Assembly: GCA_947453415.1 (NCBI GenBank)
Contig: CANGGG010000006.1
Location: forward strand, 1 to 64,000
Source: Bacteroidota bacterium
GTDB lineage: Bacteria > Bacteroidota > Bacteroidia > UKL13-3
Direction of reading: 5' to 3'
DNA: 64,000 bases
Below the pieces are notes generated by a model. The model did not search any database. It was not told where the DNA came from and saw only the letters and a list, made by a program, of their open reading frames with translations. Below, piece after piece: positions 35,708-59,262 of this stretch (position 1 is the first letter of the stretch; every line of letters starts with the position of its first letter). The position numbers and the translations under genes are program-made.

Positions 35708-36559
35708 TTATTTAATTTTTTTTCCAATAAATTCATCATATAAAATTGGGCTTTTAGTATCGCCTTCCCCATTGGCTAAAGTATCTTTAAAATAGTAATA
35801 GGTAAGTTTTAGATTATTCTTTACCTTAACCCCTATACTTCTTTTATCATTAGGAAGTCCATACATACAATGAGGAGAATATAAACTAAAAATAGAACTA
35901 CCAAATGCACCAACAGCATTAAAAGCATATTCCTTAAATCCTCCAACATTTACTTTATATTTTTTGCTTACGTATCCATCATAAGGAATATTAGTTATAA
36001 AACTACCATCAGAGCTGTTTTGTTCAGTAGAAGGTAAAAAACCTATATCTACTTGAATCACCTTAGAAGGATTACTTTTTTTATAACCTTCATAAGTACC
36101 AAATAATGTCCAATATCTAGTTGAACTAAATAAAGAATCTATTGGATAGGTATAAAACGATTTTGTTAAAGTATCACTAGTTTTAAAGTTTCGGGTACAG
36201 CCTAGCTTGTAATGTTTGTAAACTACTAATGTAACATCAATTTTGCTTGCTTCAGGATACATGCCTCTGAAAAACTGTTTTTGGGTAATTTGTTCAGATC
36301 CTAAAAACCACCTACAACTATCAATGTTTGGAGTAAGAACCCTATATCTTAAAGTTACTGGTGCAAAAGTTACACTATCTAATTCATTGAATACAATTGG
36401 CCAATTTTTATCAAATTGTCCTTCTTCTATCACAAAATCTGCCTTTACTTCTTCTTGTCCGGCACATGGATTTTCAGGTGCTATTTCCTCTTTGGGGTTG
36501 CAAGCAAAGGGAAGTAAAGTAATTGCTGTTAGTAAACTTATAAATAATATTTTTTTCAT
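35708..36559 (-). CDS. Lipoprotein with conserved NPKEEIAPENPCAGQEEVKADFV N-terminus
   Basis: Lipobox LLPFACN from ATG 36559; paralogous N-terminus to the next gene. Confidence 0.7.
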   Translation of the reverse strand: MKKILFISLLTAITLLPFACNPKEEIAPENPCAGQEEVKADFVIEEGQFDKNWPIVFNELDSVTFAPVTLRYRVLTPNIDSCRWFLGSEQITQKQFFRGMYPEASKIDVTLVVYKHYKLGCTRNFKTSDTLTKSFYTYPIDSLFSSTRYWTLFGTYEGYKKSNPSKVIQVDIGFLPSTEQNSSDGSFITNIPYDGYVSKKYKVNVGGFKEYAFNAVGAFGSSIFSLYSPHCMYGLPNDKRSIGVKVKNNLKLTYYYFKDTLANGEGDTKSPILYDEFIGKKIK

Positions 36560-36578
36560 AATTTTATTGAATTTTGGT

Positions 36579-37433
36579 TTAATATATTTTAGTACCAATG
36601 TATGTGTCTTTAAATTTTAGTTCACTGCTGCCTAGCGGAATAGTATCGGCATAACTGTATTCAATGGTGATTTTTTTAATATCTTTTCTGTCTAGCCAAC
36701 CATAAACTTTTATAGCGGGAATTTCTGGTACATTTAGGTTCGGAAGCTTTAATACAGCTATATTTTTCATGACAAATGCTTTAGGAGATACTCCACCGTA
36801 TTCGCACCAATCATAAAAAGAGTAATTGTTATTACCACTTTTATTCCAAATAGAGTTAACATAAGGAATTCCAGAAACCAAACCTACATAAGCTGGATTA
36901 TCAACTCCATTTTTCCAAAATGTATCATATAATGTAACATTAAATTCAAGATTTGGCTTTGATAAATTATGCCCACGGTAGGTACCATAAATTGGATACT
37001 GTGGGTATATAGGCGCACTTGGAGGTAAGGTAAATTTTACTGGCCGTACATAAAATTTTCTTTCAGATGAATCTATACCGTCATCAAAAGGAAAGCAATT
37101 TTTGTTTGGAATTCGCTTTACAATTAATTTTACATCGAGCCAGCCTAACGGAAAAGTACTCTTAATTACAGATTGTGTAGACAGAGTTTCTGCACCCAAT
37201 ATCCAAGTATAGCTATCGGCTTTTTGCAAAGCCCTAAACCTAACTTTGTTTCCATAATCAGCAATGGTATCACCTTCAAACCACCTATCTCCAATTAATT
37301 CTTCTAACACAAAATCAGCTTTTACTTCTTCTTGTCCGGCACATGGATTTTCAGGTGCAATTTCCTCTTTGGGGTTGCAGGCAAAGGGTATAATAAGTAA
37401 GGCTGTTATTAGTTTTAAGAATGTATTTTTCAT
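36579..37433 (-). CDS. Lipoprotein with conserved NPKEEIAPENPCAGQEEVKADFV N-terminus
   Basis: Lipobox LIIPFACN from ATG 37433. Confidence 0.7.
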   Translation of the reverse strand: MKNTFLKLITALLIIPFACNPKEEIAPENPCAGQEEVKADFVLEELIGDRWFEGDTIADYGNKVRFRALQKADSYTWILGAETLSTQSVIKSTFPLGWLDVKLIVKRIPNKNCFPFDDGIDSSERKFYVRPVKFTLPPSAPIYPQYPIYGTYRGHNLSKPNLEFNVTLYDTFWKNGVDNPAYVGLVSGIPYVNSIWNKSGNNNYSFYDWCEYGGVSPKAFVMKNIAVLKLPNLNVPEIPAIKVYGWLDRKDIKKITIEYSYADTIPLGSSELKFKDTYIGTKIY

Positions 37434-37443
37434 AACCAAAAAA

Positions 37444-45816: not shown

Positions 45817-46575
45817 TTATTTCTTCAAATTAAACGAAAACATGGAATAACCAATTCCAAAAGAAACCCAAGGTTTGGCCTGGTAAATCCAACCATATTT
45901 TATTTCGTTGGCATTGCTTATAAAATCAAATCCTGTAAAGATTCCTACTTGTGCATTTCCCATTTCTATTACCACTCCAAAAGAAGGTGTAAAAGCCAAT
46001 AATTCTTGTGTTTTTTGTGTTTTTCCTCTGGTTGAAAAGCTATCAACAGTAACAGAAGATATGCCAACGCCTATTAAAAAATCGAGGGCAGCTTGCTTGT
46101 CTTGGTTCAAAGTATATTTTACTCCAAAGGTTGAACCAACTGAAATATCTTTGCTGAAATCAAAAGGACCAAAGCGCAATTTAATGGGTGTCATGATGGT
46201 TCCTACTACCAAATCAAAGTCGGATTTTTTAACCAAATAAGCTTTAAAATCGAGTTGGGCTTTGGTAATGGAATAATAGGTGTAAGTGGTATAATCTTCT
46301 ATGGGGTTTGATTTGCTAGCACCTTTTTTTTTGTTTAAAAAAGTAAACCTGATGACGCATAAATCTTGTTTTACATCTACCAGCATAAACTTTGATTTTG
46401 GTGGAGCTACGAGCAAAGTAGTATCTATTATTTTACCAATGATATTGCATTTATAAATGGGACATTCCACCAAAAATTCATACAAACGTATTTTGTCGTT
46501 CAGGCTTTGGGCACTGCTTTTATTGTTGGCGAAGACGCCAACAATGGCAAAAAAAATGAATAGAAGTTTTTTCAA
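45817..46575 (-). CDS. Hypothetical outer-membrane/exported protein
   Basis: Signal peptide (LLFIFFAIVGVFANNKSSAQ); beta-rich C-terminus. Confidence 0.6.
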   Translation of the reverse strand: MKKLLFIFFAIVGVFANNKSSAQSLNDKIRLYEFLVECPIYKCNIIGKIIDTTLLVAPPKSKFMLVDVKQDLCVIRFTFLNKKKGASKSNPIEDYTTYTYYSITKAQLDFKAYLVKKSDFDLVVGTIMTPIKLRFGPFDFSKDISVGSTFGVKYTLNQDKQAALDFLIGVGISSVTVDSFSTRGKTQKTQELLAFTPSFGVVIEMGNAQVGIFTGFDFISNANEIKYGWIYQAKPWVSFGIGYSMFSFNLKK

Positions 46576-46791
46576 AACTTAATTTTGGATGTTGAATTTT
46601 GGATGTTGAATTAATAATACAGCCATCGTCATGCTGAGGCACGAAACAACTTTATAAGGTAATTTTTATAGTTCCTTCTTCCGCTTTGGCGGAATCAGGA
46701 TGACGTTCCCGCAATTTGTTTATAATGGGCAGACACATAGGTCTGCACACTACCAGTATTTATGCAATTTTGTAATCTTCAAATCTTTCAA

Positions 46792-47187
46792 TTAAAAAAC
46801 AAATACCACCACGTACTTATCATACTCATCAGATATGGCATATTTACCTTTTTTGAGGGTGCATTTTTTAAGTTCAAGTGTGTTGCAAATATCTTCGTTA
46901 AAGGTATAATCATCGTCTAGTAAAAAGTTGCCTGTGGCAAAGTATTTTAAAAACAATTTATCGGTAACGCTGCGTTTTAAAAAGTTAAATTGAATATGCT
47001 TTTCGTCTAACACATCTATGGTGGCCAGCACTTCATTTTCTTTTCTGCTTTCAGCGCTGCTTATAGATACATTACAAAAGTTAAACCCATTGCAATCTGG
47101 GGATTTGCCTAGGCTAACCAAATAATTGTTTTCAGTTTTAAAAAAAAGCAATATAAATAATGAAAAAAATAAAATTATTGGTTTCAT
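46792..47187 (-). CDS. Small exported protein sharing its N-terminus with 48071-48388
   Basis: MKPIILFFSLFILLFFK...SLGKSPDCNGFNFCNV. Confidence 0.55.
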   Translation of the reverse strand: MKPIILFFSLFILLFFKTENNYLVSLGKSPDCNGFNFCNVSISSAESRKENEVLATIDVLDEKHIQFNFLKRSVTDKLFLKYFATGNFLLDDDYTFNEDICNTLELKKCTLKKGKYAISDEYDKYVVVFVF

Positions 47188-47194
47188 ATAATAA

Positions 47195-48031
47195 CTAATT
47201 TAACAATTTATCTATTTTATCACATAAATCAATTTGAAATAATTTTTGTTCAACATTTGTATTCCCAAAATATAAGATTTCACCATTTTTAACTATTATA
47301 TAAAGAGGAACAGCAGTTATTTTAAGTAAATCAATTGAATTAATGTCTTTTGCAAATAGATTATTTCCTCTATCATAATTTTCTGAGAGAATTTTTTTTG
47401 TTCTTATTATAGAATCTCTTCTAATAGGAAAATTCAATGTATAAAACTTCACTTTTTTATTAGTATAAATATCTTGAATTTCTGAATATTTTGAAAATCC
47501 AATTATACAATTACCGCAGTTAGTAGTCCAACAATCAATTACTTTGATTGTATCGTTTTTTGAAAACAACTCATTACTTAAATTATTTGAAGATATTGTT
47601 TCGAAATAGGGTAGTTTACTATTTATTAATTGATAATTGTCCTTATTAAAATAATAATCTAACCACCATAACATGAAAACATAACACAATAAAGATGTAA
47701 GAAAAAACACAATAAATAAAAACCAATTATTTTTTATTTTTTTAAATAAAAATTCATGAATAAATAAAAATAAAAATGGTGAAATTGAAATTGGAATTGT
47801 GTGGTAATTTTTATCAATAATCGTTAAAATACAATATAAAACAGGACTTATTAATAATAAAAGTTTATAATATAAATTATCATTTTTTAAAAAATGCAAA
47901 ATTACTAAAATAGAAAATGCATTTATACTAAACTGTATAGGCCAATTAAAATATCCGCTTAAAAGAAATGTAATATTGAAAAATAATATCAATGTTATTT
48001 TTACCTTTTTATTTGTTTTAAAGTTTCTCAT
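47195..48031 (-). CDS. Polytopic membrane protein with C-terminal thioredoxin-like (TlpA-type) domain
   Basis: Several TM helices, then DTIKVIDCWTTNCGNCIIGFSKYSEIQDIY...LLKITAVPLYIIVKNGEILY (CGNC active site, cis-Pro-type VP). Confidence 0.7.
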   Translation of the reverse strand: MRNFKTNKKVKITLILFFNITFLLSGYFNWPIQFSINAFSILVILHFLKNDNLYYKLLLLISPVLYCILTIIDKNYHTIPISISPFLFLFIHEFLFKKIKNNWFLFIVFFLTSLLCYVFMLWWLDYYFNKDNYQLINSKLPYFETISSNNLSNELFSKNDTIKVIDCWTTNCGNCIIGFSKYSEIQDIYTNKKVKFYTLNFPIRRDSIIRTKKILSENYDRGNNLFAKDINSIDLLKITAVPLYIIVKNGEILYFGNTNVEQKLFQIDLCDKIDKLLN

Positions 48032-48070
48032 AATTTCAATATAAATGATTTTTTTTTTACCAACTAATTA

Positions 48071-48388
48071 TTAGTATCCAATTGATGCTGGGCCCTTTGA
48101 TGGTTGATCAACTTGACAAGTTCCATCACAACTATGGCGCCAAAACAATCCACATCCACTTACAGATGTACACTTCAATTTTGAGTTGCATATATCAGCT
48201 GTCGAAATAATTATTCCTCCGCAATAATCATCACCTGAAACACAATTACAGTTAGGAGCCCCATCAATTCCTTTGCTGTTTATTAATACATTACAAAAGT
48301 TAAACCCATTGCAATCGGGGGATTTGCCAAGGCTACTTTTAAAAAAAAGAAATATAAACAATGAGCTAAATAAAATTATTGGTTTCAT
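48071..48388 (-). CDS. Cysteine-rich secreted mini-protein (10 Cys in the mature part)
   Basis: Signal peptide, then SLGKSPDCNGFNFCNV...APNCNCVSGDDYCGG...ADICNSKLKCTSVSGCGLFWRHSCDGTCQ. Confidence 0.6.
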   Translation of the reverse strand: MKPIILFSSLFIFLFFKSSLGKSPDCNGFNFCNVLINSKGIDGAPNCNCVSGDDYCGGIIISTADICNSKLKCTSVSGCGLFWRHSCDGTCQVDQPSKGPASIGY

Positions 48389-48758
48389 TGAGATTGAATG
48401 TAAAAAATTTACTTATTTTATATCGGTTTTTAGAAAACACATTGTAAAAAAAATTTAATGTATTAACGGGTAAAACATTAAAAATTATAAAAAATCTAAG
48501 TGGATATTTCGAGTTCTTTATTAATAAAAAAAACGCATCAGATTTTTTATAAACAATGGCGTTTTCAATTACAAAAATGGTATTCAATTCTATAAATTGA
48601 ATATTATTTTGTCTCAAAAGTGTCCTTGCCTCAATACTTCTTACTGAAAAACATTCAATATTTCTTATAATATTTTTTTTAAATAACTCAATAAACCAAC
48701 AACATACTGAACACCTATCATCATAGATTATTACAATTCCTTTCATGATCTTATTCAA
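48366..48758 (-). CDS. DCC-family thiol-disulfide oxidoreductase-like protein
   Basis: IVIIYDDRCSVCCWFIELFKKN, SVRSIEARTLLRQNNI. Confidence 0.75.
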   Translation of the reverse strand: MNKIMKGIVIIYDDRCSVCCWFIELFKKNIIRNIECFSVRSIEARTLLRQNNIQFIELNTIFVIENAIVYKKSDAFFLLIKNSKYPLRFFIIFNVLPVNTLNFFYNVFSKNRYKISKFFTFNLNETNNFI

Positions 48759-50844
48759 AATAAAAGTTATAAATAAAATTTTCAGTAAGGTTTTCTATTT
48801 TTGGATTTGTATATGTGTTATACAATATTGTTATAATAGTGTTATCATAAGAATTATAGAAGTTTCTAGAAGCATATCCAAAATGATCGCCTGAATGACC
48901 ATAAAAATTAATACCCCTATAATTTGATTGAATTAATCCCATTCCATATTGAAAATTTGGGTTGTTATTAAACATTTCCATGTTTTTAATAGAGGAATCG
49001 GAAAGAATTGATTTCTCAATAAACAATTTATTTAAAAAATTAGTTAATCCAAAAGCATTTGCACTTAAAGATCCCGCGCCAATGGTAAAATTATTATAAT
49101 ATTCATCGCAAAAAAATCTACTTACATTTTGATTATTTGAATATGGTTGAGACATATTTGGAACATTCACTTTTGTAAGTGAATAAATATTATCTAATTT
49201 ATATGGATTTAACAATTCATCATCTAAAACTTCAAAATACTTTTTATGATAAATTTTTTCAAGTATATATGCCAATAATATATAATTGGTATTACAATAT
49301 TCAAATTGAATATTGGGCTGCTTTTGAGGCTTTGTGATATATTTTAAAAGATTAATAGTAACTAGCTTATGATTGGTTTTAAAAAGAGCTCTTTTAAGTA
49401 TAATTTTACCTATATTTTTATCATTCACGATTTCGTTTAATCCAGATGAATGTGTGAGCAAATTTTTAATGGTTATATTTTTCAAATATTTTGATTTAAA
49501 AAAATCAGAAATCGGCTGATTTAAATAAATTAATTTTTTTTCGACAGCTTGAAAAATTAATGTGCTTGTAATTAGTTTACTAGAACTCCCCACAGCAAAT
49601 ATGGTGTTACTATCTACTAATTTATTTGGTTTTGCATTTCCAAAATTTAATTTTAAAAAAGTGCCATTTTTAAAAACACAAACTTGCATACCAAAACTAT
49701 CATTTTTTAAACTATCTATGATTACATTTCCATATTTTAAAATTTTATCATTTAATTGTTTTAAATTATTAGAAACATAATTACACTTGGGAATATTTAG
49801 ATTACTTTCATCACAAAAATTTATTATAAAATCGGTTAATAGTGGTGTGAATGAATTTCCATTTAAACAACAAACAATTGTCAAGTTTTCTGACGGCAAA
49901 TAGGTAAATGAAGCAAAAGTTTTATCCAAATTGGAAATAACTTCATAACCAATTTTATTATTGATTTTTTTTGTTTTTATACCCATACCGTAATTCTCTT
50001 CTATACTTAGCATTTTCTTTAGGCTTATTGTAGATAATAGTTTTTCAGAAAATAAGCTTTCTAAAAAACATAAAATATCACTTGTACTAGAAACAATAGA
50101 AAGTGAGCCTATAAAATTATTTAAATTACTTTCTTTTGCCTCAATCCATTTGAATTCACTTTTTACAAAAGATTTTGCTTCATTTTTTTCTATTTCTGAA
50201 TAAGTATCAGAATAAGTGTTTTCAAGATTTAATTTTTTAACTATTCTTTCGTTTAATACTTCGCTATAAGGTTTGTTACAAATTTTTTCAATAATAAGTG
50301 CCAATAAATAATAATCTGCGGGGGAATATGATTCATCTTTATTGGGTAAATATTCTGGCTTTACATTCGTAATTTTATTCAAAATGAAAATTTGATTTTG
50401 TTGATCAGATTTCCACTCATCTATGTCTAAATATTTATTAATATTAAAAAGTCCACTACTATGCCAGAGTAAATATTCAATAGTAATTTTATTTGAATTT
50501 GGAATATTTTTAAAATATTTAGATAGTTTATCTGAAAAGTTTAACTTATTTTCTTCAATAAGTTGTAAGACCAATACAGCAGTATAAGTTTCAGTAATAT
50601 TTCCAATTCTATACTTTGTATTTTCATTTGGTTTAATTTCATTGCCATTGATATCATTTCCAATTTTGCCAAAAATTTTATTGTAAATTGTTTTACCACT
50701 TTTTACAATTGAAACACTACCCATAGCCAATCCATTATTATTTAAATTATTAAATAATGAATCTAATCCTTTCAAATCTATGTTTGAAGAATAAGAAATG
50801 ATAGTTATAATATTTATTAATAAAAACAGCGTAAGTTTTTTCAT
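48751..50844 (-). CDS. Exported protein with two tandem serine beta-lactamase/PBP-like domains
   Basis: C-terminal domain has VGSSSKLIT (SxxK), EYCNTNY (YxN) and YGHSGDHFG (HxG). The N-terminal domain has the same fold cues without the catalytic residues. Confidence 0.8.
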   Translation of the reverse strand: MKKLTLFLLINIITIISYSSNIDLKGLDSLFNNLNNNGLAMGSVSIVKSGKTIYNKIFGKIGNDINGNEIKPNENTKYRIGNITETYTAVLVLQLIEENKLNFSDKLSKYFKNIPNSNKITIEYLLWHSSGLFNINKYLDIDEWKSDQQNQIFILNKITNVKPEYLPNKDESYSPADYYLLALIIEKICNKPYSEVLNERIVKKLNLENTYSDTYSEIEKNEAKSFVKSEFKWIEAKESNLNNFIGSLSIVSSTSDILCFLESLFSEKLLSTISLKKMLSIEENYGMGIKTKKINNKIGYEVISNLDKTFASFTYLPSENLTIVCCLNGNSFTPLLTDFIINFCDESNLNIPKCNYVSNNLKQLNDKILKYGNVIIDSLKNDSFGMQVCVFKNGTFLKLNFGNAKPNKLVDSNTIFAVGSSSKLITSTLIFQAVEKKLIYLNQPISDFFKSKYLKNITIKNLLTHSSGLNEIVNDKNIGKIILKRALFKTNHKLVTINLLKYITKPQKQPNIQFEYCNTNYILLAYILEKIYHKKYFEVLDDELLNPYKLDNIYSLTKVNVPNMSQPYSNNQNVSRFFCDEYYNNFTIGAGSLSANAFGLTNFLNKLFIEKSILSDSSIKNMEMFNNNPNFQYGMGLIQSNYRGINFYGHSGDHFGYASRNFYNSYDNTIITILYNTYTNPKIENLTENFIYNFYFE

Positions 50845-51695
50845 TTTGTTAGTTGTTTTGTTGGGTTAAAATTATAGAAAGCTGCTAAATTCCAAACTAT
50901 CATAATTGCTGAGAAAAGGTATAAATTTAAGGCAATTGCAATTCCTAAATGCATCAATACAATAAAAAATAACCAGTAATTTGTTACTTTTTTTATCATT
51001 ATTAATATATAGAACATTTCAAGAATTATAACTGACCAAGATAAAATTGGAAATATTGTACTAAAATTTAAAAGTGAATCAAAATTGATTCTAAAATCAT
51101 TATTAGAACTTGGCAATGTAATTGCCTTCCAAATTGCTTCACCATTCCTCCAATTATAACCTAGTAATTTATCGAATCCAGAAAAAAAATATGCAACTAT
51201 TAGATGTATTTGAAGTATTCTTCTATAAAATAAATAATTAATTAACGATTGAGATGGAAATACTAATAAGTGAAAAAGTGACATACTTATAAAATAATCA
51301 TAGCCATACATAAAATTTGGATTATTATAATAGAAAGAAGTATGTAGAATAATCAATAAAAAGGAAATTCTTCTTGTATAAAATCCTAATATTAATGCTA
51401 TGCAAAGTATTATATATATGATAAAAAAGAAAATAACATAGTATTCTTCTTTTACATTAATAAAGTTAATAACTTTAAATGTTGTTATAGTTGTTGGACT
51501 ATTATATAAATTACAAACCTCTGAGGGTATCAAACTATGAATGCCAAAAAGTTCTTTATAATCTGGAATAATTAAAACAAAATCTAAAAGTAAAAAAAAA
51601 CCAACCATTATTCTAAAAAAGAAAATAAAATTGAAATTTTCTTTTCTTTGATTAAAAAACCAACTATTCCCAAGAACTAATATCTTTTCTATCAT
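50841..51695 (-). CDS. HTTM-domain (SdpB-like) polytopic membrane protein
   Basis: FIFFFRIMVGFFLLLDFVLIIPDY; NPNFMYGYDYFISMSLFHLLVFP; IHLIVAYFFSGFDKLLGYNWRNGEAIWKAI; W..L E IL pattern typical of HTTM proteins. Confidence 0.72.
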   Translation of the reverse strand: MIEKILVLGNSWFFNQRKENFNFIFFFRIMVGFFLLLDFVLIIPDYKELFGIHSLIPSEVCNLYNSPTTITTFKVINFINVKEEYYVIFFFIIYIILCIALILGFYTRRISFLLIILHTSFYYNNPNFMYGYDYFISMSLFHLLVFPSQSLINYLFYRRILQIHLIVAYFFSGFDKLLGYNWRNGEAIWKAITLPSSNNDFRINFDSLLNFSTIFPILSWSVIILEMFYILIMIKKVTNYWLFFIVLMHLGIAIALNLYLFSAIMIVWNLAAFYNFNPTKQLTK

Positions 51696-52284
51696 ATATT
51701 TTTCTTCTTATTAGTAGATGTTTTTCATTGGAAAGTTCTTTAGACTTAATTTGAGAAAGTAAAGGTTTATGATATAAAAATAATTCACATATAACTTTCT
51801 TCATATTATTGTTCTTTTTCAATTCATTAATTGCAAGTCCTTTCATAAATATTGCATTTTTTTTATAATCAAAATCACTAGTATCTTGATTTTCATAATT
51901 GAGAAACATTGTCATAGCCGAATTTACTCTTTGAATAGATGTTTTACTTTTTAAGGAAATTTGATACTTTGTACTTATAATTAGATTATTAGAATCTATA
52001 AAAGTAAACTTTATTTTAAAATCACTAGCAACATTTGGAGCGAAAAATCCATATCCTGTTTCTAAACCTGTATAAGTTTTTATAGTATTTATAAATAAAT
52101 TATTGTCTATAAAACTCAATTTATTATAAATTAAGTTTTGAGTTAACAACTGCTTTTTACCATAGAAATCATAGTATGTTGAAATTATACCCCTTATATT
52201 AACTAAAGTAGTAAGTGTAAAAAACAAAACAATATAAGTGATAAGAAATAATTTATTTGATTTCATTATGATTTTGTTATTCAA
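51664..52284 (-). CDS. SdpA-like HTTM-partner protein
   Basis: N-terminal TM, then TGLETGYGFFAPNVASDFKIKFTF (the W/Y-x-FFAPN signature of HTTM partners); overlaps the HTTM gene by 32 nt. Confidence 0.55.
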   Translation of the reverse strand: MNNKIIMKSNKLFLITYIVLFFTLTTLVNIRGIISTYYDFYGKKQLLTQNLIYNKLSFIDNNLFINTIKTYTGLETGYGFFAPNVASDFKIKFTFIDSNNLIISTKYQISLKSKTSIQRVNSAMTMFLNYENQDTSDFDYKKNAIFMKGLAINELKKNNNMKKVICELFLYHKPLLSQIKSKELSNEKHLLIRRKIYDRKDISSWE

Positions 52285-52325
52285 GCAATAGCTTTAAAAA
52301 TAAAACTATTGCTTGAGTAATCTTT

Positions 52326-52682
52326 TTATAAATACTTTGCCATTAATTCATTAATTTCTGCTTTTACCTCTGGAGAAACAACCCATGTTTTAGTTGTAAC
52401 AATTGTTTCTGAAAAATTAACTAAATTTATTGATTTAGTAAAAATTCTTGTTTCTGTCTTCTCCTTTTTTTGTTTTGCACCTTCTGCATCTATCATAATA
52501 GCCTTTTCCTTCGCATCTAGTTCCATAATTCTTTCTTTATCTTCTAAAGAAATTGAATTTTTTAAAGGAATATAATAATTCCCATTAGCTAATAAATCGA
52601 CTTTTCCATTACCGTCATTTTTTTTAAACGACATCATTGTTAAACCAATTAGGCTTAACGATAAAATTACTATTTTTTTCAT
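52326..52682 (-). CDS. Small exported protein, first gene of the Sdp-like chain
   Basis: Signal peptide MKKIVILSLSLIGLTMMSF; 118 aa. Confidence 0.55.
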   Translation of the reverse strand: MKKIVILSLSLIGLTMMSFKKNDGNGKVDLLANGNYYIPLKNSISLEDKERIMELDAKEKAIMIDAEGAKQKKEKTETRIFTKSINLVNFSETIVTTKTWVVSPEVKAEINELMAKYL

Positions 52683-52837
52683 ATTTTTTTTGCGGTTGTA
52701 AAAACCTGCTGAAATTTTAATTCCGATAAATCGAAAGTTTAATTAAATAAAAATAATAAAACCTATACTCAATTATACTGCAGCTAAATTAGTTGGGTTT
52801 TGTGCTAGCAATTTTGGTGGTAAAAATTAAAATTACC

Positions 52838-52914
52838 TATTCATATTTGGATATTTTATTCATATATGAATAATTTATGTTTAATACAAATATAATATGC
52901 ATATTTGAATATTA
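52838..52914. promoter_or_regulatory. Repeated ATTCATAT-type palindromic operator cluster
   Basis: TATTCATATTTGGATATT, ATTCATATATGAAT (perfect 14-bp palindrome, 52858-52871) and ATGCATATTTGAATATT in front of the divergent XRE gene. Confidence 0.6.
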
Positions 52915-52922
52915 AAAGCATT

Positions 52923-53336
52923 ATGAGTAAAATAAATATAGAAATTGGTAAAAAAATAAAAATCAAACGACACGAAATAGGCTACAAACAAGAAAGTTTA
53001 GCCATAGAGTTAGGTATTTCACAATCGGCATTATCTCGCATTGAAAATGGCTCAGATAGTTTAGTAGTTGAAATATTATACTTATTAACTCAGGTTTTAA
53101 ATACTCCAATTGGCTATTTTATCTCCGACATAAATGGAGATTTATTTACAGCTATTTATTTGGAAAAAATTAAACTATTGGAAGAAATGTTATTAAAAAA
53201 TGAAACCTTAATCAATCATCAAGTAAAAGTTATTAAACAATTAGAAGATCAAATCAAAGATTTGCAAGAAAAGGTATCACGAAAAAATAAAAAAATAGAA
53301 GAGTTAAAAGAAACAATTTCACATAAGAAAATTTAA
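52923..53336 (+). CDS. XRE-family HTH regulator with C-terminal coiled coil
   Basis: IGKKIKIKRHEIGYKQESLAIELGISQSALSRIENGSDSL; coiled-coil tail. Likely ATG start 52923. Confidence 0.85.
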   Translation: MSKINIEIGKKIKIKRHEIGYKQESLAIELGISQSALSRIENGSDSLVVEILYLLTQVLNTPIGYFISDINGDLFTAIYLEKIKLLEEMLLKNETLINHQVKVIKQLEDQIKDLQEKVSRKNKKIEELKETISHKKI

Positions 53337-58707: not shown

Positions 58708-59262
58708 TTAATTTGAACAAACACTTGACGCAATTGATGGAAATATAGCAACTGCATTGTTAACCACAGTTTTTGTGCATTTACCAATATTTCCACAAGG
58801 AGTGCAGGCTAAAAGTTGTGGAACACACCCTAATTGTTCGTTAGAACAAGCAGTAGTTGTACAGGTTACGGTAAACCCCGAAACAATCCAACAGGTTGGT
58901 CCACCTTGTTCCAATTCCAGTGTAGATTTAATTAATTCATTATTCATTGTTCCAGTGACTATTAAATAATATTTTGGAGATGCAGTTCCATCCGAAACAA
59001 TTGCAATTTGATTTAATTGACAAGGACCTAAATCAGGTTGATTAGTAATAAAGTTTTGCCAATCATTTTTTAAAGATGTTGAATCAGCAACAAACGTTAT
59101 AACACCGTTATTAATTTCAGCAATTACAATAGTTGAATCATTTTCATTAATTAAAGAGGCTGTTTTTTCTGTTGAATTTTTATTTTCATTTTGATTGTTA
59201 TTGCAAGCAATAAGTGTTATTGAAAATAATAAAATAGCAATGTGTTTAATTTTTTGTTTCAT
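58708..59262 (-). CDS. Lipoprotein with cysteine-rich C-terminus
   Basis: Lipobox TLIACN; TCWIVSGFTVTCTTTACSNEQLGCVPQLLACTPCGNIGKCTK...SSVCSN. Confidence 0.6.
   Translation of the reverse strand: MKQKIKHIAILLFSITLIACNNNQNENKNSTEKTASLINENDSTIVIAEINNGVITFVADSTSLKNDWQNFITNQPDLGPCQLNQIAIVSDGTASPKYYLIVTGTMNNELIKSTLELEQGGPTCWIVSGFTVTCTTTACSNEQLGCVPQLLACTPCGNIGKCTKTVVNNAVAIFPSIASSVCSN

Follow-up and report, generated by a model that had tools for sequence, protein, structure and literature searches.

Which peptide is served by an SdpA/SdpB-like gene pair that adjoins a Cys-rich secreted-peptide gene, and do the surrounding genes form one pathway? The question is raised by a locus in contig CANGGG010000006.1 of Bacteroidota bacterium (UKL13-3); nucleotide positions are those of the window, the 64-kb stretch of this contig that was analysed. 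An earlier note, made from the sequence alone, had described eight closely packed minus-strand open reading frames (ORFs) and a divergent plus-strand XRE gene as a candidate Sdp-like system, and all are present at the coordinates it gave. On balance, we read the locus as a regulated secreted-peptide operon, most likely of bacteriocin type, in which two modules are joined at a chromosomal platform with recombination-exchanged content. The operon appears to fuse two modules because X, the product of its first gene, tracks the SdpA/SdpB-like pair (SdpA', SdpB') in relatives, while fulvocin-type peptides pair with a membrane thioredoxin. The genes at the core of this argument are:

52326-52682, minus strand: X, small protein with a Sec-type signal, first gene of the SdpA'-SdpB' unit and candidate substrate by position and alignment A5
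51664-52284, minus strand: SdpA', membrane-anchored protein with a TGYGFFAPN motif (alignment A1); the start is probably ATG 52266, because relatives align from there
50841-51695, minus strand: SdpB', SdpB/HTTM-fold multi-pass membrane protein (profiles, predicted fold, invariant K176)
48071-48388, minus strand: fulvocin C-type 8-Cys core (NF033852), fused behind an N-terminus of P131 type (signal and LGKSPDCNGFNFC)
47195-48031, minus strand: membrane protein with a C-terminal thioredoxin-like domain (WTTNCGNC; weak PF00085 match)

X is the recurrent partner of SdpA' and SdpB'

Neighbourhoods were surveyed in the fetched flanks of 32 unique SdpB' loci, 27 from a search of relatives and five from a phylum sample. 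SdpA' lies directly upstream of SdpB' in 31 of the 32, and an X-type small same-strand gene precedes SdpA' in all 31 loci with SdpA'. Beyond L020, a near-identical copy of the window locus, none of these flanks holds a fulvocin gene; none among the surveyed relatives holds the thioredoxin gene, the L020 contig ending before it. Conserved synteny of the SdpAB pair with peptide genes, for which relatives were to be searched, thus exists for X and not for the Cys-rich peptide, and the proposal that SdpAB act on the latter is not supported: the conserved partner is X, which the earlier note had not singled out.

It seems that X-SdpA'-SdpB' form a widespread Sdp-like family that has not been described, with X as the candidate SdpA'B' substrate. 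X-type genes are in tandem in five loci (L035, L038, L094, L098 and L099), and X is well conserved among Flavobacterium species and very variable between genera. X is considered a possible toxin precursor by its position and duplication. Searches of X against Pfam and NCBIfam gave no match. Identity with SdpC was rejected by profile comparison (probability 0.5%), as was a relationship to fulvocin, the alignment being limited to the signal peptide.

Several points weigh against the favoured two-module reading. Of the X calls, 26 were made with the A5 profile, built largely from the same loci, and five by position only; X has no SdpC homology, and window X has neither Cys nor a hydrophobic toxin segment; and the profile similarity of SdpA' to SdpA is not significant.

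SdpA' and SdpB' and their wider relatives

In alignment A1 (window SdpA' and 16 relatives) the membrane anchor and the TGYGFFAPNVAS motif are common to all, while in genuine SdpA (alignment A2) the anchor is followed by PQGWAFFTK; the two share no more than the FF[A/T] motif, the membrane anchor and the position of the gene. The label 'SdpA-like' therefore holds for gene position and motif and not for family recognition, as SdpA' has no match to TIGR04034, PF17418 or Pfam generally. By profile comparison, alignment with SdpA was confined to the motif segments (probability 9%), and identity with DUF5819 (0.2%) or with the fused C-terminal domain of HTTM proteins (10%) was likewise rejected; a 95.5% match to a mixed set was explained by closer SdpA' relatives inside that set (97.5%). 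An AlphaFold2 model of SdpA' (pLDDT 82) has no significant match in PDB.

Proteins encoded directly upstream of SdpB-family genes match DUF5819 (PF19136) weakly in L103 and clearly in L104. An SdpB/HTTM-type membrane domain thus appears recurrently paired with an F-[AT]-P-like motif domain, which supports functional equivalence, common descent not being proven. In the window's genus, HTTM-type proteins of ~470 aa carry a fused C-terminal NQNWGMFAP domain (L009, 1207-2628; L010, 937-2358; L012, 1288-2676; L013, 922-2325), and the three tested score above the cut-off for the eukaryotic lipase maturation factor family LMF1.

SdpB' belongs, as a distant member, to the SdpB/HTTM superfamily. In a whole-genome search with TIGR04033, 50841-51695 scored 32 bits (E 1.1e-7, one genome) against a cut-off of 178.4. 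Among the 18 SdpB' members of alignment A3, for which relatives were taken from other genera, TIGR04033 is matched by 12 (best 1.5e-8) and HTTM by 10 (best 2.2e-8) at E <=0.5. A genuine Bacteroidota SdpB set was obtained from sdpA genes above cut-off, which led to four loci with adjacent sdpB (L054-L057); hhalign of the SdpB' profile against the profile of this set gave a probability of 97.4% (E 9e-12), and in the reverse check the A3 profile retrieved genuine SdpB at E 7e-11. The 16 best Foldseek matches in PDB of an AlphaFold2 model (pLDDT 84) are all human GGCX, the vitamin K-dependent gamma-carboxylase (TMq ~0.6 for the top 14). The SdpB-like/HTTM identity first suggested for this protein is accordingly borne out by profile comparison and by the GGCX-like model fold.

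R, GxD, YxxxxxxK, WxxG and E columns are invariant across SdpB', SdpB and HTTM, and the invariant SdpB' K176 is aligned with the catalytic K218 of GGCX. This alignment came with the broader SdpB/HTTM profile; a direct SdpB' profile search of PDB sequences gave no match. N159 and H160, which belong to the Glu pocket of GGCX, stand opposite G131 and Y132 in that alignment, and Glu carboxylation is therefore not implied for SdpB', which may nonetheless be an enzyme. A bolder proposal, which we hold doubtful, is that X-SdpA'-SdpB' is a widespread undescribed peptide-modifying system, SdpB' being a menaquinone-dependent GGCX-superfamily enzyme with K176 as base and, as substrate, a secreted peptide that SdpA' presents. 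If true, SdpB proteins generally, including that of Bacillus, would be enzymes rather than simple export factors. To our knowledge, the actual role of SdpA and SdpB in maturing the Bacillus cannibalism toxin is an open question, and none of the papers searched mentions both HTTM and SdpB. The tie of SdpB to vitamin K-dependent carboxylase, by fold and one conserved lysine, makes the question of SdpB as an enzyme testable.

Of the rival explanations, the one that survives best, though we think it unlikely, is that SdpA'B' act as a general factor in the maturation of a single secreted non-toxin, X, as LMF1 does for lipases, with the bacteriocin genes incidental. The LMF1 matches of the same-genus HTTM proteins with a fused GMFAP domain are in keeping with this, as are the SdpB' fold, which is that of a protein-modifying enzyme, and the conservation of Flavobacterium X, unlike that of typical toxins. 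However, the frequent tandem duplicates of X and its variability between genera argue otherwise, and the leader of the window's X is also found on an alternative, Cys-containing protein of this site.

Fulvocin-type peptide and membrane thioredoxin

The second module of the favoured operon has its own distribution. NF033852 (bacteriocin fulvocin C-related) matches 48071-48388 with 34.8 bits, 0.2 bits short of the cut-off of 35; the match covers the C-terminal core (model positions 103-149, E 2.6e-8), in which all eight core Cys are aligned (A7), and the pro-region is absent. The ten Cys counted in the earlier note are accounted for by these eight and by two in the N-terminal part common to 46792-47187 (P131). 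Its prediction of a bacteriocin-type peptide is supported by this match, while 'undescribed' is not wholly apt for a peptide that matches an NCBI family; among the papers searched, none on the fulvocin C-related family was found. The start of the gene resembles the first ~120 nt of P131, with 18 of 20 residues identical around SLGKSPDCNGFNFCNV.

Full-length NF033852 proteins (signal, pro-region, 8-Cys core) are encoded in L016, L017 and L018, from the same taxonomic family, in each case with the membrane thioredoxin gene after the fulvocin gene and without SdpAB. No such thioredoxin adjoins the fulvocin genes of other phylum members (L091-L093). In L019 (9634-10193), a broken fulvocin-type gene adjoins an intact thioredoxin gene.

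These distributions bear on the single pathway proposed in the earlier note, in which SdpA'B', the DCC protein and the thioredoxin mature one fulvocin-type Cys-rich peptide, the serine hydrolase is a peptidase or immunity protein and X is accessory. The genes are tightly packed on one strand, two thiol oxidoreductases adjoin the 8-Cys peptide, loss of the usual pro-region makes a new helper conceivable, and Bacillus SDP carries a disulfide. Elsewhere, however, SdpAB always occur with X and never with fulvocin, while fulvocin and thioredoxin occur without SdpAB, and we regard a single pathway as improbable. Least probable is that 48071-48388 is a non-functional by-product of recombination, as the P131-like start, the missing pro-region and a broken fulvocin gene in G003 might suggest, since the chimera is in frame with its signal sequence and eight core Cys retained, the peptide is intact in a second genome (98% amino-acid identity) and the thioredoxin gene that follows it is intact.

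Cassette exchange at one chromosomal site

Comparison of related genomes revealed different contents in the same interval, from prmC to the porin-like gene that follows P131. In G041 it holds XRE, full-length fulvocin, thioredoxin and P131 genes, and in G040 a different XRE gene, the gene for a 169-aa Cys-containing protein, two more genes and P131; the gene for the 169-aa protein matches the start region of X exactly over its first 70 nt. G039 has both a window-type and a G040-type cassette, on two contigs. Identity between the window and G039, a different species, is 99-100% at 48.2-52.6 kb. It is 87-95% over 52.8-54.4 kb and mostly 95-99% farther out; towards the thioredoxin and P131 genes it is about 93%. 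The order P131, then porin-like gene, holds in other genera (G029, G055, G057), with a Cys-rich secreted protein upstream in G055 and G057 and, in G057, also a divergent XRE gene.

Most simply, the platform is conserved while its contents are exchanged, with an interior that differs between species and has recently recombined. Contamination of draft genomes might produce part of such a mosaic; identity, however, shifts inside single contigs. The sister-species comparison suggests that secreted-peptide modules are exchangeable at one site via 5' leaders and a 3' gene that are both conserved.

At the same site, L089 (4690-5199) and L090 (9105-9599) encode another Cys-containing secreted protein with an X-type leader (CNGSNPCGPCAGICIR in L090), after which come two genes of unknown kind; for the proteins of L089 no family match was obtained.

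Other genes and control region

The remaining features of the locus are:

52905-53336, plus strand: divergent XRE-family (HTH_3) regulator (PF01381, 40.7 bits; likely start ATG 52923)
52838-52911, no strand: putative operator-like cluster, formed by the palindrome ATTCATATATGAAT with two similar copies
48751-50844, minus strand: secreted double-domain serine hydrolase, beta-lactamase fold (PF00144, 4.7e-63)
48366-48758, minus strand: DCC1-like thiol-disulfide oxidoreductase (PF04134, 3.3e-17; possible start ATG 48746)
46792-47187, minus strand: P131, small secreted protein encoded by the gene that is constant at the 3' end of the locus (kept in relatives; no meaningful family match)
45817-46575, minus strand: secreted porin-like protein, whose gene constantly follows P131 in relatives (no Pfam/NCBIfam match)

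Intergenic distances from X through P131 are, in order, 41, -32, -4, -8 (+4 with an ATG start), -23, 39 and 7 nt. Overlaps 51664/51695, 50841/50844 and 48366/48388 are as previously described; that at 48751/48758 exists with a TTG start, while the in-frame ATG four codons later (48746) leaves a 4-nt gap. The arrangement is not attributable to chance, because a second genome also has the block that runs from XRE to the peptide gene (97.8% DNA identity) and X-SdpA'-SdpB' recurs in 31 of the 32 relatives. The unit probably extends past P131 to the porin-like gene, absent from the earlier description, because relatives keep this gene directly after P131. An intergenic repeat (46620-46720) lies between the two, with two copies in L090. 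Rfam and tRNA searches gave no matches.

The operator-like repeat cluster placed between XRE and the head gene by the earlier note is confirmed as a perfect ATTCATATATGAAT palindrome (52858-52871) and two one-mismatch copies, all in the XRE/X gap. No site with 0-1 mismatch occurs elsewhere in the window; sites with <=2 mismatches number 11 vs 10.25 expected, i.e. no excess. Divergent XRE genes also stand at the head of the locus in L016, L089 and L118.

In the serine hydrolase, domain 2 has complete catalytic motifs (S420SSK, Y516CN, H650SG) and domain 1 is degenerate, with NITE instead of SxxK and YxN lost. A role in beta-lactam resistance was rejected, the protein being far under all curated drug-resistance beta-lactamase cut-offs listed. 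The DCC1-like protein (64.2 bits; gathering score 27.8) has an intact CxxC (CSVC) within DDRCSVC. That SdpAB have DCC or serine-hydrolase partners elsewhere too is confirmed by L054, L036, L033 and L103, the last with a beta-lactamase-fold gene after an SdpA/SdpB-type pair.

Elsewhere in the window, two adjacent secreted proteins (35708-37439) are identical over a stretch close to the N-terminus (PFACNPKEEIAPENPCAGQEEVKADFV) and differ thereafter, forming another conserved-leader, variable-core pair; 58708-59262 encodes a 184-aa lipoprotein-like protein with a Cys-rich C-terminus, and 2061-2549 a secreted protein of repeated KDAYGxKLYYxDGxxxR units.

Proposed mechanism

The gene content, the families, the X-SdpA'-SdpB' and peptide-thioredoxin pairings, the SdpB' fold and the cassette exchange are read from sequence, whereas the toxin nature of the products, each processing step, repression and immunity are inferred. 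In the favoured two-module operon, the XRE protein would repress transcription via the palindromes until a signal relieves repression. Module 1 would comprise X, SdpA', SdpB', the serine hydrolase and the DCC protein: X, exported by its Sec-type signal, would be processed or modified by SdpA'B' on the outer side of the inner membrane, the other two serving as accessory enzymes, with the serine hydrolase trimming a product or protecting the producer. In module 2, the fulvocin-type peptide and the membrane thioredoxin, the 8-Cys peptide would leave by Sec and the thioredoxin would form or proofread its disulfides. The DCC protein and the thioredoxin may both supply or proofread disulfides, the latter chiefly in the fulvocin-type peptide. 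Immunity or export are possible roles for the constant components, P131 and the porin-like protein.

Comparison with known systems

The locus is Sdp-like in architecture, yet lacks several features of Sdp membership. Like Bacillus sdpABC and yitPOM (PMC6818787) and Bacteroidota sdpC-sdpA-sdpB (L054-L057), it combines in one operon a secreted small protein, an anchored FF-motif protein of SdpA type and a multi-pass SdpB. The gene order of genuine Bacteroidota Sdp loci is SdpC-SdpA-SdpB, and X here occupies the place of SdpC without detectable homology; no SdpC-type precursor was found in the locus by Pfam/NCBIfam. SdpC is in tandem in L054 and L055, as X is in several loci, and a DCC gene follows SdpB in L054. 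In L054 (7284-10121), SdpA-SdpB-DCC is preceded by four SdpC-type precursors in tandem, which are nearly identical in their N-terminal halves and differ at their C-terminal ends. Unlike Sdp loci, the window locus has an extra serine hydrolase and thioredoxin, and its SdpA' is not recognised as SdpA; unlike in sdpABC-IR, the regulator is XRE/HTH_3 and not SdpR-type, and, as the earlier note observed, no SdpI-like immunity protein is evident (no SdpI family match in the locus by Pfam/NCBIfam). An 'SdpABC-like toxin system' has been mentioned for a Bacteroidota genome (PMC6421346). The present locus led to what appears to be a second Bacteroidota family of SdpA/SdpB-like pairs, broader than the first, whose conserved small secreted partner is a different one and which has no SdpC.

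With DUF5819, SdpA' shares the FAP motif and a gene position directly upstream of an SdpB-family gene (L103, L104), though there is no significant profile match with window-type SdpA'. The peptide has the 8-Cys C-terminal core of the fulvocin C-related family but, unlike its members, a P131-type N-terminus in place of a pro-region. SdpB', at 284 aa, differs from GGCX in lacking the propeptide-binding lumenal domain and in the replacement of N159/H160 by G131/Y132, and resembles GGCX/HTTM proteins in its membrane fold and in the Lys aligned with GGCX K218.

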